From NCBI GenBank assembly GCA_029227215.1, contig JAQXZM010000126.1, positions 1 through 40,183 on the forward strand: DNA of 40,183 nt, read 5' to 3'. The stretch comes from Bifidobacteriaceae bacterium (GTDB lineage Bacteria > Actinomycetota > Actinomycetes > Actinomycetales > Bifidobacteriaceae). How positions within the stretch are numbered: position 1 is the stretch's first letter; each line of letters opens with the position of its first letter. The notes under the pieces were generated by a model. It was given only the letters and a program-made list of their open reading frames with translations. It ran no database searches and had not been told where the DNA came from. The position numbers and the translations under genes are program-made. Below, piece after piece: positions 19,219 through 39,701 of the stretch.

Positions 19219-19416
19219 TCATCTCTGATTTTGTTCCTCGATTTTGAATCGTCAGGGATTTTGGTCTCGAAATCGGTGTCATTTGCTCTGATTCTTTGCG
19301 AAATGGGTGCCATAAGCTCGAGGAATCGAAAACGCATCCACAGAGTCAGACAATCCGGCACTGCGTTGGTGCCGATACCTCTGACGATCTCGCCAGCAAG
19401 AAAACCGGCAGGGATT
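19219..19416 (+). repeat. Dispersed ~200-bp repeat, copy A (possible ORF remnant)
   Basis: Translates to SSLILFLDFESSGILVSKSVSFALILCEMGAISSRNRKRIHRVRQSGTALVPIPLT; aligns without gaps to copy B on the opposite strand. Confidence 0.6.
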
Positions 19417-25496: not shown

Positions 25497-25637
25497 GTTT
25501 CCTCCTTGTGCCAGGCGATGATGCCAAATCCAGATAATGAATTCGTAAGGCTGACTCCCATTATCGTGCACACCACGCTCCACACGCCGCCCCGGCTATC
25601 GCTTGCACTTATGGCAGGCTACCGCGCCACCCATTCC

Positions 25638-25741
25638 GCCCAACTTACGGTTCCGACCAGCATTCCTAGCAAATCCAAGCGAAATGCTGGCCAACACCCC
25701 AAGTTCGCGGAAAAATGAATCGCCCAGCTTGAGATTCTGAC
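25638..25741. repeat. Palindromic intergenic repeat, copy 2, plus following half-element
   Basis: CGCCCAACTTACGGTTCCGACCAGCATT...AAATGCTGGCCAACACCCCAAGTTCGCGG then ATCGCCCAGCTTGAGATTCTGAC. Confidence 0.8.
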
Positions 25742-25758
25742 TTCCCTCTGCCCCGCCG

Positions 25759-25956
25759 CACCTCTGAGGATTCCCCGCCCTGCCGCATCGTCAGAGGTCC
25801 CGGCACCACCGCGGTACCAGAATCCCTGACCCTGCGAACGCATTTTCGACCCTCAGAGACAATGACACCCGATTCGCGGATTGTCAGAGGGAATGACACA
25901 AATTTCAAGACCAAAACCTCTGACAATTCAAAATCCAAAAGCAAAGTCAGCGATTC
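25759..25956 (-). repeat. Dispersed ~200-bp repeat, copy B (inverted relative to copy A)
   Basis: Minus strand translates to ESLTLLLDFELSEVLVLKFVSFPLTIRESGVIVSEGRKCVRRVRDSGTAVVPGPLT. Confidence 0.6.
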
Positions 25957-25971
25957 CAGCACCAGCCCCCA

Positions 25972-26044
25972 CGCCCAACTTACGGTTCCGGCCAGCATTC
26001 CAAGCAAATCCAAGCGAAATGCTGACCAACACCTCAAGTTCGCG
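25972..26044. repeat. Palindromic intergenic repeat, copy 3
   Basis: CGCCCAACTTACGGTTCCGGCCAGCATT...AAATGCTGACCAACACCTCAAGTTCGCG. Confidence 0.8.
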
Positions 26045-26055
26045 ACAGAAAGCAT

Positions 26056-26129
26056 CGCCCAGCTTGGGCTGACGGCCAGCATCATGCCCGCCGCACCGCC
26101 CAATGCTGCACACAACCCCAAGCTCGGCG
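26056..26129. repeat. Palindromic intergenic repeat, copy 4
   Basis: CGCCCAGCTTGGGCTGACGGCCAGCAT...AATGCTGCACACAACCCCAAGCTCGGCG. Confidence 0.75.
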
Positions 26130-26149: not shown

Positions 26150-27328
26150 CTACAGTTCGAGGGAGGCGAGGTCTTGGAGGCGCAGCACCCTGCCGTGACG
26201 GGTGTCGAAACTGTCGGCGCCGCTGTAGACAAGGAGGCGGTGCTCGGTATCCACGCCCATGCTATCGGCCATTTTGTCAATGGTCGCCCATGCATGCACA
26301 TCGTAGGTACTGCTTGCCTTCACTTCGATGACGTACTGCGGTTTTCCCGATTTCTCGATGACAAAGTCGATCTCCATGCCCCTGTTGTCACGCCAGTAAT
26401 ACAGCCGCGGCTCACGCCCGTGCATGTAATACTGCTTAATAATCTCCACGACAACCGCGTTCTCGAACAGATTGCCCCACGCATCCCCTCCACGCAGCTG
26501 CATAGGGCTCTCGATGCCTTGCAGATTGCACGCAAGACCCGTGTCGTAGAAATACAGTTTCGGCATCTTGACAAGCCGCTTTCCGTAATTCTTGTAATAC
26601 GGCAGCATGCGAAACGCAACGAAGCTGGACTCCAGAATCGACATCCAATCGTTGACGGTAATCCTGCTAACCCCGCACTCATTGGCAAAGTCCGAGGCAA
26701 CGTAGGATTTGCCGCATTGGTGCGCCGCATACTTCACGAACCGCGTGTAATCGGTGAGCTTGCGCACGCCAAGCTCCTTCCTTACATCACGCTCCACATA
26801 CGTGCGCAAGTAATCCTCATAGAAATTGACAGTGCGAATGGTACTGCCACCATAGAGTCTCGGATACCCGCCGCGAAACACCCACTCCTCGATGGAGTCG
26901 GGCCTTTCCGTATCCGCATCCGACGCGAGCACCTCGGAATACGACAACGGGAGCAGATGCCGGACCGCCACACGACCGGCGAGCGTTTGCGAAATCGTGT
27001 CGAGCAGCAGGAAATTCTGCGAACCCGTGAGCACGAACTGCCCTGGTTCGTTCGTTTCATCCACCACCTGTTGCAGATACGAGAAGAGCTGCGGCGTGCG
27101 CTGCGCCTCATCGAAGATGATGTGACGGTGGTACCGGCTCAAGAAATACCGGGGATCGTCATTGAAGGCACGGCGCGTATCAGGGTTCTCCATGCTCACA
27201 TATTCAAAGTCTGGGAAACACGCCTTGGCAAGGGTCGTCTTCCCGCTCTGCCGCGGTCCAGTGAGAGCGATGACAGGAAGTTCCGACGCTGAGAGGTGCA
27301 ACTCACGGGTCAATGCTCTTGGAATCAT
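26150..27328 (-). CDS. AAA_14/DUF4143-type ATPase (ATPase 1)
   Basis: Walker A GPRQSGKTTLA, Walker B HIIFDEAQR, LTGSQNFLLL, C-terminal MEIDFVIEKSGKPQYVIEVKAS. Confidence 0.9.
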   Translation of the reverse strand: MIPRALTRELHLSASELPVIALTGPRQSGKTTLAKACFPDFEYVSMENPDTRRAFNDDPRYFLSRYHRHIIFDEAQRTPQLFSYLQQVVDETNEPGQFVLTGSQNFLLLDTISQTLAGRVAVRHLLPLSYSEVLASDADTERPDSIEEWVFRGGYPRLYGGSTIRTVNFYEDYLRTYVERDVRKELGVRKLTDYTRFVKYAAHQCGKSYVASDFANECGVSRITVNDWMSILESSFVAFRMLPYYKNYGKRLVKMPKLYFYDTGLACNLQGIESPMQLRGGDAWGNLFENAVVVEIIKQYYMHGREPRLYYWRDNRGMEIDFVIEKSGKPQYVIEVKASSTYDVHAWATIDKMADSMGVDTEHRLLVYSGADSFDTRHGRVLRLQDLASLEL

Positions 27329-27336
27329 GCAATCCT

Positions 27337-27432
27337 CTACTATACAAATTCCACCAACATTACTATACAAATTGTACGGCTTCTACTATACATTTTGCAC
27401 TATCTCTACTATACAAATCGTACGTTATTCTA
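27337..27432. repeat. Tandem array, exact 23-bp period, 4 units plus a degenerate fifth, upstream of ATPase 1
   Basis: ACTATACAAATT/ACTATACATTTT/ACTATACAAATC starts at 27339, 27362, 27385 and 27408. Confidence 0.92.
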
Positions 27433-32203: not shown

Positions 32204-32621
32204 AATGTGTGCCTTACTGTGCTGGTTTCGTTGTTTTCCGTTGTTTTCGAAGTGCGAACAAGTTTCGTTCGACGGTTGCAGGCGTAAGGCTGGGAGTCGC
32301 TGCGCATGGTGATTGCTGCTGAATCCAACGGTTTGTTTGGTGGAATCCGATTGCAATCCGATTGGTGATGAAGCCCTGTGGGCGAGACATCGTTCAATTC
32401 TGGTATGCGTCAAGCGACGCACAGCCACTGGCTGGCGTCGTTAGCGACAACAACACGACGAATTGAACTTCATGCTTGTGACTATAGCACGCGGTTTTCG
32501 GAGCCTCGTTCACATGACCGCAACATGGGCGCGAAACAGGGCGGATCCCAACGCCTCCCCTGGCGTGTCGCATCCATGACGCGCTTCTCGCCATGTTTCG
32601 ATTGTTGCATCCTGCAATGTG

Positions 32622-32759
32622 TGGTTAGGATTATCATGACCTTCACTACCGAATTAACATGACTCTCACTACCAGATTTGCATAGACTCCACTACCAGAT
32701 TTGCATACGATAGACTGCCACATTAACATGAGCATCACTACCGGATTTGCATAACCATC
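32622..32759. repeat. Tandem array, exact 23-bp period, 5 clear units plus one degenerate unit, upstream of ATPase 2
   Basis: Units at 32645, 32668, 32691, 32714 and 32737: ACTACCGAATTAACATGACTCTC / ACTACCAGATTTGCATAGACTCC / ACTACCAGATTTGCATACGATAG / ACTGCCACATTAACATGAGCATC / ACTACCGGATTTGCATAACCATC; degenerate in-register unit at 32622. Confidence 0.92.
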
Positions 32760-32853
32760 AATGCCAACACACCACCAACGCGCCGTCGCCACCACCCGCG
32801 TAAGGCACCCTAAAGCCTTGCAAACACACGCAACCAAGCCAGAAAGCCGTATC

Positions 32854-34014
32854 ATGATCCCTCGTATCATCTCGCCCATCACCCAGAAAATGGCATCATG
32901 GTTCCCGGTCGTCGCCGTCACCGGACCACGCCAAAGCGGCAAGTCCACGCTACTCAAATCCGTATTCCCCGATTACACGTATCTCAACCTCGAAACCCGC
33001 AATCTGCGCACCAGCGCCCAGGCCGATCCGGTGGGATTCATTCACTCGCGCCCTGCGCATCTGTTCATCGACGAAGCGCAATACGCGCCGGACATCTTCG
33101 CCGAGATCCAGGCGGCGAGCGACGAGCGCGGCGAGATGGGCCAATACGTGCTGTCCGGTTCGCAGAACTTCCTGCTGCTCCACGGCATCGACGAATCGCT
33201 CGCCGGCCGCGTGGGCTTGCTGCAATTGCTCCCGCTGAGCTATGCCGAGGCCACGCAGTCGGATCCCAGCCTCAGCGTGGACGCGTTCATGCTGCGCGGC
33301 GGGTACCCACACCTGTATGACGTGGCGGTGCCGCTCAACATCTACTTCCAAAGCTATATCTCCACCTACATCGAACGCGACGTCGCCGGCATCGTAAGCC
33401 CCGAGAACCTCGAGCAGTTCCGCACGTTCCTGCGGCTATGCGCCGACAGCGCCGGTCAGTTGCTCAATGTCACCCACCTGGCCGCCGAGGCGGACGTGGC
33501 GTTCAAGACCGCCCGTGCCTGGCTGTCGCTGCTGCAATCGAGCTACATCGTGTTTCTGCTCAAGCCTTATGCCTCGAACATCCGCAAGCGGCTGACCAAG
33601 ACGCCCAAGCTTTACTTCCACGACACCGGCCTGCTATGCCATCTGCTGGGCATCGACACGCTCGAATCGCTGCTCACCAGCCCCAAGCGCGGCGAGGTGT
33701 TCGAGAACCTCGTCGTCGAAGAAACGCTCAAGCACCACCTCAATGCCGCCCGCACGCCGGATCTCTACTTCTACCGCGATTCCAACGACGTGGAGGTGGA
33801 TCTCATGGACATGACCATCGCAAGCGCACCCCGCCTCATCGAGGTCAAGTCCGGGCAGACCGCGCGGCTAGGCTTTGCGAAGAACGTGGCGAGCGTCGGC
33901 GAACTGCTCCATGTGCCGCCCGCGCAGCGCCTGGTCGCCTACCGCGGCGACGAGGCGTTCCAATCCCCCAACGCCGCGTTCACCCCGATCACGGACTATC
34001 TGCGCTTCGAATGA
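32854..34014 (+). CDS. AAA_14/DUF4143-type ATPase (ATPase 2)
   Basis: MIPRIISPITQKMASWFPVVAVTGPRQSGKSTLLKSVFPD, HLFIDEAQYAPD, LSGSQNFLLL, VEVDLMDMTIASAPRLIEVKSGQ; an alternative ATG at 32761 abuts the array. Confidence 0.9.
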   Translation: MIPRIISPITQKMASWFPVVAVTGPRQSGKSTLLKSVFPDYTYLNLETRNLRTSAQADPVGFIHSRPAHLFIDEAQYAPDIFAEIQAASDERGEMGQYVLSGSQNFLLLHGIDESLAGRVGLLQLLPLSYAEATQSDPSLSVDAFMLRGGYPHLYDVAVPLNIYFQSYISTYIERDVAGIVSPENLEQFRTFLRLCADSAGQLLNVTHLAAEADVAFKTARAWLSLLQSSYIVFLLKPYASNIRKRLTKTPKLYFHDTGLLCHLLGIDTLESLLTSPKRGEVFENLVVEETLKHHLNAARTPDLYFYRDSNDVEVDLMDMTIASAPRLIEVKSGQTARLGFAKNVASVGELLHVPPAQRLVAYRGDEAFQSPNAAFTPITDYLRFE

Positions 34015-34075
34015 CTGTCGTTTGCCCAATGCGCTCGCCCCAGCCAGGCCGTCCCGCGCGCAGGTGTCGCAGCGG

Positions 34076-35452
34076 TCAGCTGAGTTCGAGGTCGGAGCCG
34101 GATTGGAGGAACTCCATGAGGTTCAGGTGGCGCACGCCATCGCGTTGCACGGGAAGCGGATCGAGGGAGAACAGGTAGCGCGGGTAGGCGTCGCGGATCT
34201 GCAGGAACGGACGGAACTCACGTTCCTCCACCGAGGGGTCTTGCACGCTCATCGAGACCTGCACATAGGCGTATTGGTTCGCTTTCTTCACGATGAAGTC
34301 GCATTCGAGCTTGCCGATGATGCCCACGCTCACCTCGTAGCCGAGCGAGCGCAGATACAGGTACAGCGCGTTTTCGAGCGCCGGCCCGTAGCTGATGCGC
34401 GTGTCGGTGCTGCGGGCGAAGCGGATGCCGAAATCCGCCAGGTAGTACTTCTCCCCTCCCCGCAGGGACTTGCGGGTGCGCAGGTCAAACCGCGGGCATT
34501 TGTAGAGCACCTTCGCATTCTCCAGCACCCGCACATAGGTCGCGAGGGTCTCGCGCTTGATGCCGACGCTCTCCGCGGTGTTGAGGTAGCGTGCGATGGA
34601 CGAGAGGTTCGTGGGCGAGGCGATGTTGTTGATGAGGTAGTCCTGCACCCGCTCGAACGTGTCGCGATGGCGGATGGCGCGGCGGGCTGTGATGTCTTTA
34701 TCGAAGATCTGGCCGATGACGTCTTGGATGTACAGCGCCTTCGCGTCCGGCTCATCGTAGTCCAGGGACTTGGGGAAACCGCCGTAGGTCAGGTAGTCGC
34801 GGAACGCCTGGGTGGGCGCGATGTTGGGCTTGCCGAGGAACGAGCGCATGCCGAGGTATTCCTGGAACGAGAGCGTGAACATCTCCAGCTCCACATACCT
34901 GCCGGTGAGTTTCGTGGCGAGCTCGCCGGAGAGCAGGTATGAGTTCGAACCGGTGATGAAGATCGAGACATCCCCTTCTTCGCGCCATGCATTGATGACT
35001 TTCTCGAAGCCCTTCACGTTCTGCACCTCGTCGATGAACAGGTAGCGCAACAGGCGGGAGACTTGGGGTGATCCTGCGGGGTCGCCCGTGCCTAATGCGG
35101 CCTGCGCGAAGGCGCGTTCGATGGCGGTGTCGAGCTGCTTGGGGCTCGTGACATCCTGGTACTCGCGCCGGTCGAGGTTGATGTACACGATGCGGCTGGG
35201 GTCCACGCCACCCTCCCGCAGCTCCTCCATCACCGTGAGCATGAGGCTTGACTTGCCGCAACGCCTGATGCCGGTGATGACCTTGATGAGGTCGGCATCA
35301 CGGTAGAAGGGGCGCAGTTTCGCCAGATAGCGTTCACGCCGGTACAGATGCGGCGCAACGCCAGTGCTGGCTGCGCTGCCGCCCGCATCCTGCATGCCTT
35401 CCTGAACGTCTTCCCGAACGCCTTCAGTCATCGCAGCCTCCCCGATAGTCAT
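34076..35452 (-). CDS. AAA_14/DUF4143-type ATPase (ATPase 3, divergent subfamily)
   Basis: RRERYLAKLRPFYRDADLIKVITGIRRCGKSSLML, YLFIDEVQNVKGFEKVI, FITGSNSYLLSGELATKLTGRYVELEMFTLSFQEYLG. Confidence 0.9.
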   Translation of the reverse strand: MTIGEAAMTEGVREDVQEGMQDAGGSAASTGVAPHLYRRERYLAKLRPFYRDADLIKVITGIRRCGKSSLMLTVMEELREGGVDPSRIVYINLDRREYQDVTSPKQLDTAIERAFAQAALGTGDPAGSPQVSRLLRYLFIDEVQNVKGFEKVINAWREEGDVSIFITGSNSYLLSGELATKLTGRYVELEMFTLSFQEYLGMRSFLGKPNIAPTQAFRDYLTYGGFPKSLDYDEPDAKALYIQDVIGQIFDKDITARRAIRHRDTFERVQDYLINNIASPTNLSSIARYLNTAESVGIKRETLATYVRVLENAKVLYKCPRFDLRTRKSLRGGEKYYLADFGIRFARSTDTRISYGPALENALYLYLRSLGYEVSVGIIGKLECDFIVKKANQYAYVQVSMSVQDPSVEEREFRPFLQIRDAYPRYLFSLDPLPVQRDGVRHLNLMEFLQSGSDLELS

Positions 35453-35491
35453 GGAATCCCTTGTGAATCGCCTTCCTCGGTGCGTGGCGAC

Positions 35492-35520
35492 ATTGTATCG
35501 CGAAAATTCCTAACGGACAA
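35492..35520 (-). promoter_or_regulatory. Predicted promoter of ATPase 3 (-10 TACAAT, -35 TTGTCC, 17-bp spacer)
   Basis: Minus strand TTGTCC-GTTAGGAATTTTCGCGA-TACAAT; the -35 lies inside palindrome 1. Confidence 0.55.
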
Positions 35521-35555
35521 AGTTGTGATTTTTGCCAACTTTGTCCGTTAGGAAT
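35506..35555. repeat. Perfect 20-10-20 palindrome, copy 1
   Basis: ATTCCTAACGGACAAAGTTG-tgatttttgc-CAACTTTGTCCGTTAGGAAT. Confidence 0.97.
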
Positions 35556-35692
35556 GGATGGCGGGAGCCGCTGAGATGGCAGGGTGTGCCGATGTGGATT
35601 CTCAGTCGAAAAACGTTGAGATATCGCGGTTCTTGCATGCCCGCGAACTGATGGACAGTGATTAGGATCGATTGATTCCGCAGGTCCGCAGA

Positions 35693-35742
35693 ATTCCTAA
35701 CGGACAAAGTTGCGATTTTTGCCAACTTTGTCCGTTAGGAAT
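35693..35742. repeat. Perfect 20-10-20 palindrome, copy 2
   Basis: ATTCCTAACGGACAAAGTTG-cgatttttgc-CAACTTTGTCCGTTAGGAAT; one mismatch to copy 1, in the spacer. Confidence 0.97.
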
Positions 35743-35754
35743 GCTTGATGTATC

Positions 35755-36555
35755 TCACAGCGTGGCGGCGGCGATGAGGCGGCGGGTGTAAGGGTCGTGC
35801 GGATGGGTGAGCACCCGGGCGACCGTGCCACGCTCCACGACCTCGCCGTGGTGCATCACGATCACGTCGTCCGCGAGGCGCTGGGCGACGCCCAGGTCAT
35901 GGAGTACTACAAGCATCGCGACCTTGCCGCGCAGGGCGCCGAGCACGTCGAGAATCTGCAAGCGTGCCGTCACATCGAGCGCGCTCATTGGTTCGTCGGC
36001 GAGCAGCAGGCGCGGGCGCACCACGAGCGCGCGGGCGATCGCCACGCGCTGTGCCTGGCCGCCGGACAGGTCCATCGGCAAGCGCACGCCATACACGCGT
36101 GGATCCAGCCCCACCGATTGCAAGGCTTGCGCCGCCTGGCGCTCCGCCTCGGTGCGTGAAATGCCGCGGGCTCGCTGTGCTCTACCGCGGGCAAGCAGTG
36201 GCTCGGCAACGCTGCGCAGCGCGCTCCACCGTGGGTCGAGGGATGCGAACGGGTCTTGGTGCACGATGCCGGATTCACGGCGCAGGCGGAGCAACGCTGC
36301 GGGATCTTCGAAAATCGAAGTGCTGCCAGAATCCTCCGCGCCACCGCAATACTCCACGCTGCCGGCATCAGGTCTCAGCAGCCCCAGTGCAATCGACGTG
36401 AGCGTCGTCTTGCCGGAACCGGATTCGCCGATGACCGCCAGCGAGCGCCCGCGCCGCAGCGTGAAGCTCACATCGCGCACCGCAGGCACGCCGCGGTAAC
36501 ACTTGGTGACGTGGCTCACGCGCAGGATTGCATCGGATTTACCGTTGTCACTCAT
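35755..36555 (-). CDS. Peptide ABC transporter ATP-binding protein (DppF/OppF type)
   Basis: GESGSGKTTLTSIALGLL, MDLSGGQAQRVAIARALV, LLADEPMSALDVTARLQIL. Confidence 0.93.
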   Translation of the reverse strand: MSDNGKSDAILRVSHVTKCYRGVPAVRDVSFTLRRGRSLAVIGESGSGKTTLTSIALGLLRPDAGSVEYCGGAEDSGSTSIFEDPAALLRLRRESGIVHQDPFASLDPRWSALRSVAEPLLARGRAQRARGISRTEAERQAAQALQSVGLDPRVYGVRLPMDLSGGQAQRVAIARALVVRPRLLLADEPMSALDVTARLQILDVLGALRGKVAMLVVLHDLGVAQRLADDVIVMHHGEVVERGTVARVLTHPHDPYTRRLIAAATL

Positions 36556-38520: not shown

Positions 38521-39569
38521 GCCCGTTCCCCTTTCGCCGCCGCCTTGAGCCGCGGATCGAGCGCGTGGTGAAGCAGATCCACCACAAGGCCCATCACCAG
38601 GAACAGCGCGGAGAGCAGCAGCAGCTCGGATTGCACGGCGAGGAAGTCGCGGCCCTTCAAGTCATTCATGAGCAGCGTGGCGAAGCCAGGCAAGGCGAAG
38701 AGGTTCTCGACCACCACCACGCCGGTCATCATCGAAGCAAACGCCAGGCCCGCCACCGACACGACCTGCGGCGCGGCAAGGCGCAAGCCCACGCGGCGCA
38801 CCGCCTGGGCGCGGGTCATGCCCGCCACCATCGCCTGCGCGATGTAGTCGGATTCGCTCACGTCCACGAGCGCGCTGCGCACATAGCGCAGGAACTCGGC
38901 GCCGGTGATGATGCCGATCGACAGCGCCGGCAGCACGAGCGACGCCAGCGCACGCCCCGGCTCACGCCACCCGGCGCTTGGAAAGCCCTGCGAGGGCAGC
39001 ACGCCCACGAGTCCCACTCCCCTGCCGAAGAGCAGCACGAGCAGCAATCCGCCCCACAGCGCCGGGATGGAACCGGCGATGATGGAGGCGATCTGCAACC
39101 CGCGCCGCACATGCGCGGAACGGGACGTGACCGCGAGCACGCCGAGCGGCACGCCGATGGCGAGCGCCACGGCGAGCCCCATGAGCGCGAGCGGCAGCGT
39201 GACCGCCATGCGCGCGCCCACTTGGGAGCCCACCGGGACGCCGGTGAGCTGCGAGACACCGAGGTTGCCATGAAGCACGTCGCGCAGCCAGGAGAGGTAT
39301 TGCACCGGGTAAGACCGGTCGAGGCCCATGTGCGCACGCAGGCGGGCGGTCTGCTCCGGCGTGGACGTGGTGCCGCCCAGCACCATCGCCGCATCGCCCG
39401 GCAACATGCGCAGGAATGCGAAAATCACCACGGATTGCACGAGCAGCGCGACCACGAACACCGCAAGCCGCCGCACAAGGTATGGCACGCGGAACCGCGT
39501 GCCGGCATCCCGTTGCGCCGATGGCTTCTCCGCCGCGCCATCTGCGACCACGTCTGAACGTGTTGGCAT
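38517..39569 (-). CDS. Peptide ABC transporter permease (DppB type)
   Basis: LRMLPGDAAMVLGGTTSTPEQTARLRAHMGLDRSYPVQYLSWLRDVLHGNLGVS; ATGA overlap with dppC-type gene. Confidence 0.93.
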   Translation of the reverse strand: MPTRSDVVADGAAEKPSAQRDAGTRFRVPYLVRRLAVFVVALLVQSVVIFAFLRMLPGDAAMVLGGTTSTPEQTARLRAHMGLDRSYPVQYLSWLRDVLHGNLGVSQLTGVPVGSQVGARMAVTLPLALMGLAVALAIGVPLGVLAVTSRSAHVRRGLQIASIIAGSIPALWGGLLLVLLFGRGVGLVGVLPSQGFPSAGWREPGRALASLVLPALSIGIITGAEFLRYVRSALVDVSESDYIAQAMVAGMTRAQAVRRVGLRLAAPQVVSVAGLAFASMMTGVVVVENLFALPGFATLLMNDLKGRDFLAVQSELLLLSALFLVMGLVVDLLHHALDPRLKAAAKGERA

Positions 39570-39583
39570 TCGTCACCTGCTTT

Positions 39584-39663
39584 CTGCTGTATTCTGCTTT
39601 ATCCCGCTGTATTCCGCTGTTTTCCGCTGTATTCCGCTGTTTCCCGCTGTATTCCGCTGTTCC
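39584..39663. repeat. 8 x 10-bp tandem repeat between the substrate-binding protein gene and dppB-type gene
   Basis: CTGTATTCCG-type decamers, alternating CCGCTGTATT / CCGCTGTTTY, in exact 10-bp register. Confidence 0.92.
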
Positions 39664-39701
39664 CAACGGCCTTCCACCGCTTTGCCGCTGCTTTGCTTTC
39701 C

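Follow-up and report, generated by a model that had tools for sequence, protein, structure and literature searches.

The stretch of DNA analysed here (the window; 40,183 nucleotides from a Bifidobacteriaceae bacterium) encodes three ATPases that combine an AAA_14 domain with a DUF4143 domain. ATPase 1 (26150..27322) and ATPase 3 (34076..35452) lie on the minus strand and ATPase 2 (32761..34014) on the plus strand. All three are matched by the PADLOC models of PDC-S01 (E = 1e-133, 4e-100 and 8e-94), the first of these values being that of ATPase 3, over residues 22-451. PDC-S01 is a phage defence candidate consisting of a single gene, whose product joins an AAA ATPase to a domain of the PD-(D/E)XK type. 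It reportedly ranks fourth in frequency among the defence systems of prokaryotes, at 39,480 counted; most PDCs await experimental validation, and the status of PDC-S01 is that of a candidate (PMC12988326).

ATPase 3, a protein of 458 aa, matches PF13173 (5e-32) and PF13635 (1e-13), its Walker A motif reads TGIRRCGKSS, and its predicted structure (model m0b0857953215; mean pLDDT 85.5) is composed of an AAA core, a winged helix and a DUF4143 domain. The winged-helix region, placed at residues ~263-323 (34484..34666, minus strand) by the secondary structure of this model, alignment and Foldseek, is the proposed DNA reader. The best solved fold match found by Foldseek is the archaeal ATPase SSO1545 (PDB 2fna), followed by the DNA-binding Cdc6/Orc1, and STAND-like AAA fold neighbours, CED-4 and resistosomes, are also returned. 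A sequence search of the PDB gave spurious pentatricopeptide matches only, and an NCBIfam search gave no match. ATPases 1 and 2 retain the PD-(D/E)XK motif (E-x-D...IEVK), which is described for the PDC-S01 group and not required by its HMM. The motif is absent from ATPase 3, which reads ECDFIVKK...VQVS, the ExK part including its lysine being replaced; a nuclease output is therefore unlikely for ATPase 3.

ATPases 2 and 3 lie, together with their cis-elements, in a segment (32539..35753, without strand; left edge approximate) that is missing at the same site in three congeneric genomes, where cbs is directly followed by oppF and the sequence becomes homologous again 11 bp past the distal of the two palindromes described below. 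The two genes thus form a presence/absence segment, a pattern anticipated for defence genes that also gives some scope to a mobile-element interpretation. The orthologues of ATPase 3 share no further conserved gene among those neighbours in the window that were tested. Elsewhere in the window, ~85 nt upstream of cbs (32388-32475; ACATCGTTCAATTCTGGTATGCGTCAAGCGACGCACAGCCACTGGCTGGCGTCGTTAGCGACAACAACACGACGAATTGAAC) are almost identical in three congeners while the flanks diverge; this stretch, which has no Rfam match, is a candidate for an element regulating the sulfur genes metB-cbs. A 10-bp unit (CTGTATTCCG-like) is repeated in tandem some eight times at 39567-39676, immediately before the opp operon's first permease gene, and an inverted repeat (168 nt, 74%) and a tandem pair (139 nt, 80%) are found at 19221-19388 and 25624-26097.

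The region upstream of ATPase 3 contains two 50-bp palindromes of the structure ATTCCTAACGGACAAAGTTG-N10-CAACTTTGTCCGTTAGGAAT, with perfect 20-bp arms around a 10-bp spacer. The proximal one (35506..35555) has an arm that includes the TTGTCC -35-like hexamer of the ATPase 3 promoter; the distal copy (35693..35742), in equal orientation, is located 12 bp past the oppF stop codon, and neither is assigned a strand. Their start-to-start distance is 187 bp, their sole difference is one spacer base (TGATTTTTGC vs CGATTTTTGC), and their identity covers 52 bp, one flanking base per side included, and ends there. The chance of even one perfect 20-bp arm pair with a loop of 0-30 in 40 kb is ~1e-6. Coordinates and sequence agree with the initial annotation of this pair, which had named a dispersed element unlinked to these ATPases as the finding that would speak against it. 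In pattern searches, on which its exclusivity is based, the full element occurs exactly twice in the 2-Mb genome, is absent from 188 other Bifidobacteriaceae genomes, and is absent from a scan of the GTDB contig collection, from which the genome of the window itself was possibly left out. The half-site of ATPase 3 (17 bases, up to 3 mismatches) is found in the 2-Mb genome only in the four arms of these two palindromes, so the element is not a dispersed one and its linkage to the ATPase is supported. A dispersed repeat of the REP/MITE type was rejected on the grounds that genome-wide pattern searches return two copies and no unlinked ones. An Rfam scan gave no family matching the palindrome, and a PLSDB megablast of the region returned nothing but short matches within the ABC transporter and promoter-distal sequence.

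The promoter-like sequence of ATPase 3, TTGTCC-17 bp-TACAAT (35492..35520, minus strand), is a consensus match only and the sole such match within 35440-35800. The proximal arm covers its TTGTCC, and the previously claimed overlap with the -35 box is correct at this locus; as a conserved trait it fails, since the promoters of orthologues vary. A TAAAAT-like -10, read by eye, is located ~8 bp upstream of the palindrome at the orthologous loci L006, L008, L010 and L013. At L024, L025, L039, L045 and L053, as in the window, the likely promoter, also identified by eye, is downstream of it. A conserved -35 overlap was rejected because the promoter precedes the palindrome in several orthologues and follows it in others; the overlap is particular to this locus, and the conserved trait is a position at the promoter or 5' end. 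The distal copy had been suggested to double as a hairpin. It does fold as a strong predicted hairpin (-34 kcal/mol, z -7.1), but it has no T tract and terminator scoring does not call it, and a hairpin or terminator role finds no specific support.

Nearly all orthologues of ATPase 3 in other Bifidobacteriaceae (62-76% identity) carry a 45-50-bp palindrome of different arm sequence on the gene's 5' side (TTTAACGGGGTCAAAGTTG, CTTCCGGGGGGCAAAGTTG, GTTATCGTGGCAAAAATTG), and relatives at 47-54% identity in Clostridia, Bacilli and Atopobiaceae have the palindromes GTTAAGGGGG...CCCCCTTAAC or GTTATGGGGACA...TGTCCCCATAAC. A wide palindrome score of at least 11 is reached upstream of 16/20 orthologues vs 27/159 control genes (p=2e-8), and many of the matches at control genes are probably terminators of the preceding gene. 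At L039, L045 and L053 an extra half-site is present ~20 bp further, between the -35 and the -10. Across 13 orthologue-bearing genomes, half-sites of the two main classes adjoin the ATPase, with one exception, which has 2 mismatches. When 27 palindromes are compared over their outer 14 positions, 338 of the 378 cells are paired, a count that leans toward pairing because the palindromes were hand-trimmed, and arm positions 4-6 are occupied by three or four different Watson-Crick pairs. The mismatches show no G-U bias (4 G-U vs 5 A-C), which argues for symmetric change at the DNA level, as expected of a DNA and not an RNA element. Orthologues keep the architecture and not the exact sequence, both arms being substituted symmetrically. 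A recognition-helix residue within RETLAxYV is K/R in 7/8 of the TTCCGGGGG orthologues and S/T/N in the TTAACGGGG ones; this difference between the operator classes of close orthologues is suggestive only, and co-variation of operator and protein comes partly from common descent.

Second copies of the palindrome are common. They are located further upstream in L006, L008 and the window, and just past the stop codon in L009, L014, L019, L024, L025 and L045. In the close genomes of L024 and L025, the spacer within the promoter palindrome has opposite orientations, as if the loop had been flipped. Of the near-identical genomes G035 and G036 (L008 and L009), G035 carries one more palindrome, together with its flanking sequence, directly after the stop codon of the ATPase, which would reflect a recent local gain or loss of a copy.

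The two other ATPases of the window are preceded by repeats of another kind. A 23-bp-period array (32644..32753, plus strand) with three near-exact copies of CACTACCRGATTTGCATA lies upstream of ATPase 2, and elsewhere in the genome this unit has no copy with fewer than 3 mismatches. Upstream of ATPase 1 there is a private 23-bp-period array of TACRATTTGTATAGTA (27338..27422, minus strand), near-exact copies of which occur in the genome only at this gene. The initial annotation, which gave each ATPase a repeated cis-element of a different kind, is right for the window, and its claim holds far beyond it. Most of 40 paralogues read have their own upstream repeat, for example ATCAGTTATAACTGAT x3, TTTGGAAGTAGACTTCCAA x3 and GTCAACAGACTGACA x4. 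Repeat scores have a median of 18 at ATPase genes vs 10 at controls in Bifidobacteriaceae (p=2.5e-8) and of 14.5 vs 10 in distant phyla and archaea (p=1.5e-6). For other orders, paralogues of ten named genomes were used. At the sensitivity reached here, the rule does not cover the whole family, since ~60% of the tested family members have no periodic direct repeat at threshold, some having a palindrome only and some nothing obvious.

The spacing of these repeats follows the protein. Direct-repeat spacings in 94 ATPase upstreams are concentrated at 32-33 and 39-40 bp, as well as at 80; the expected number per spacing there is ~0.1-0.2. One of the spacings 32, 33, 39 and 40 is present in 30/94 ATPase upstreams vs 3/210 control genes (p=3e-14; this and the other p-values given here are optimistic because related loci are not independent). 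Clustering of the repeat units gives 12 and 11 groups without relation to one another, and the excess is therefore not one repeat family counted many times. As these spacings had been chosen from the set of 94, a held-out test was run on 37 previously unused paralogue upstreams, 14 of which have one of them (0.25 expected); the commonest held-out spacings are 32, 33 and 64, then 23, 46 and 34, and the 23-bp class recurs. When 50 labelled members are placed on a protein tree, 3 changes of spacing class are counted, compared with a mean of 19.6 after shuffling; the exact count of changes is rough, since this tree was built quickly with FastTree and some of its branches are long. The 39-40-bp class forms a single clade with support of 100, and ATPase 3 is inside it. 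Judged from these comparisons, the spacing (23, 32-33 or 39-40 bp) is inherited with the protein clade while the units are unrelated, and DUF4143 ATPase genes often carry private promoter repeats, with a spacing set per subfamily and a sequence set per gene. Such a combination suggests that each ATPase recognizes and controls its own gene.

Based on the above data, we propose that the palindromes are probably a private autoregulatory operator of ATPase 3, bound by its own winged helix as an oligomer that represses its own promoter. Several traits of such an operator come together at this locus: the site is at the promoter, its architecture is kept with symmetric substitution, and the adjoining gene encodes a predicted DNA-binding domain. 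In the proposed mechanism, ATPase 3 would bind the palindromes through its winged helix as an oligomer spanning several sites, the geometry of which would set the half-site spacing, and occupancy would repress its own promoter. ATP may play a part, and the second palindrome copy may raise local occupancy or permit looping. Each family member would have diverged to its own operator sequence while inheriting its spacing with the clade; private operator sequences would therefore allow many paralogues to coexist in one genome without cross-talk. It is worth noting that the extra downstream copies (in six orthologous loci, as listed above) are not explained by simple promoter blocking, and that the reader could be another DNA-binding protein.

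Dosage control is a simple answer to why a defence-type ATPase should address itself; a self-anchored sensor, which we put forward as a proposal, is the more novel one. The array would then be a self-docking or sensing site, on which the ATPase rests on its own DNA until phage activity releases or activates it, autoregulation being a by-product. In favour of this reading, the sites belong to this one gene and define no regulon, copies also occur downstream of it, and the family is a defence candidate consisting of a single gene (PMC12988326) whose AAA fold has STAND-like neighbours (CED-4, resistosomes). We nonetheless regard it as unlikely, given that nearly all arrays coincide with a promoter or start codon, a position from which they would most simply repress, and that ATPase 3 has lost the PD-(D/E)XK lysine. 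In its most general form, which we offer as a speculation with little chance of being right, the PDC-S01/COG1373 ATPases would be self-addressed DNA-binding machines, in which a private array of clade-set spacing and freely diverging sequence keeps an immune ATPase switched off until the complex is perturbed by infection, the array thereby marking self in an immune switch made of one gene. The autoregulatory operator that we prefer must also be weighed against the action of another regulator, the ATPase being the proposed reader. That a different protein reads these elements is very improbable: the spacing tracks the ATPase tree in archaea and across several phyla of bacteria, the units tested are each confined to their own ATPase gene, and the orthologues share no other conserved neighbour among the window genes tested.

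The palindromes might alternatively belong to a small mobile element that includes the ATPase, as its termini or its sites of recombination. Such an element would account for the joint absence of ATPases 2 and 3 in the three congeners, with homology back 11 bp past the distal palindrome, for the bracketing of the gene by palindromes in L009, L014, L019, L024 and L025, and for the local copy turnover between G035 and G036. We consider this explanation improbable, since the two palindromes of the window are found on a single side of the gene and arrays at other loci are tied to promoters; most orthologues have upstream copies only, neither target duplication nor multicopy dispersal was seen, the exact 23/32/40-bp spacing is unlike a transposon-end pattern, and no recombinase is linked within the window. 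Action in RNA, as 5'-UTR hairpins or bidirectional terminators, is about as improbable, and a terminator or RNA hairpin as the main function was rejected. The very stable predicted hairpin, the position of the distal copy after the oppF stop, and the fact that the palindrome would fall within the 5' UTR in some orthologues all speak for it. It is at odds with the missing T tract and the lack of G-U bias among mismatches, with a likely promoter downstream of the palindrome in the window and the five orthologous loci named above, and with the many paralogues that have direct repeats and not hairpins.

Returning to the private operator, in the passages returned by literature term searches on DUF4143, COG1373 and PDC-S01 we found no description of upstream repeats, no earlier report of private clade-spaced repeats at PDC-S01 genes, and neither a DNA target nor a regulatory mode described for this abundant family. 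A private, gene-adjacent array of fixed spacing provides a ready candidate DNA ligand for most subfamilies and predicts the oligomer geometry, and the question of what PDC-S01 ATPases touch becomes approachable with a known oligonucleotide, by gel shift or structure. Sequence diversity at constant spacing would moreover constitute a putative natural set of insulated regulator-operator pairs.

With PDC-S01, ATPase 3 has in common the HMM match, AAA_14 with its Walker A motif and DUF4143, and differs by the loss of the ExK part of the PD-(D/E)XK motif. Its AAA plus winged-helix layout resembles that of its closest solved folds, SSO1545 (PDB 2fna) and Cdc6/Orc1, although the TM-scores to the query are only 0.3-0.5 and no origin function is indicated. 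Orc1/Cdc6 binds repeats, often near its own gene; the repeats of the ATPase family differ in that they vary per paralogue and sit at the gene's own promoter. Classical autoregulatory operators, such as those of toxin-antitoxin and TetR-type systems, are likewise palindromes or iterons overlapping the promoter of a winged-helix or HTH gene, whereas here the proposed reader is an AAA+ ATPase, the spacing of 2-4 helical turns is fixed by clade, and the sequence is private to each paralogue.
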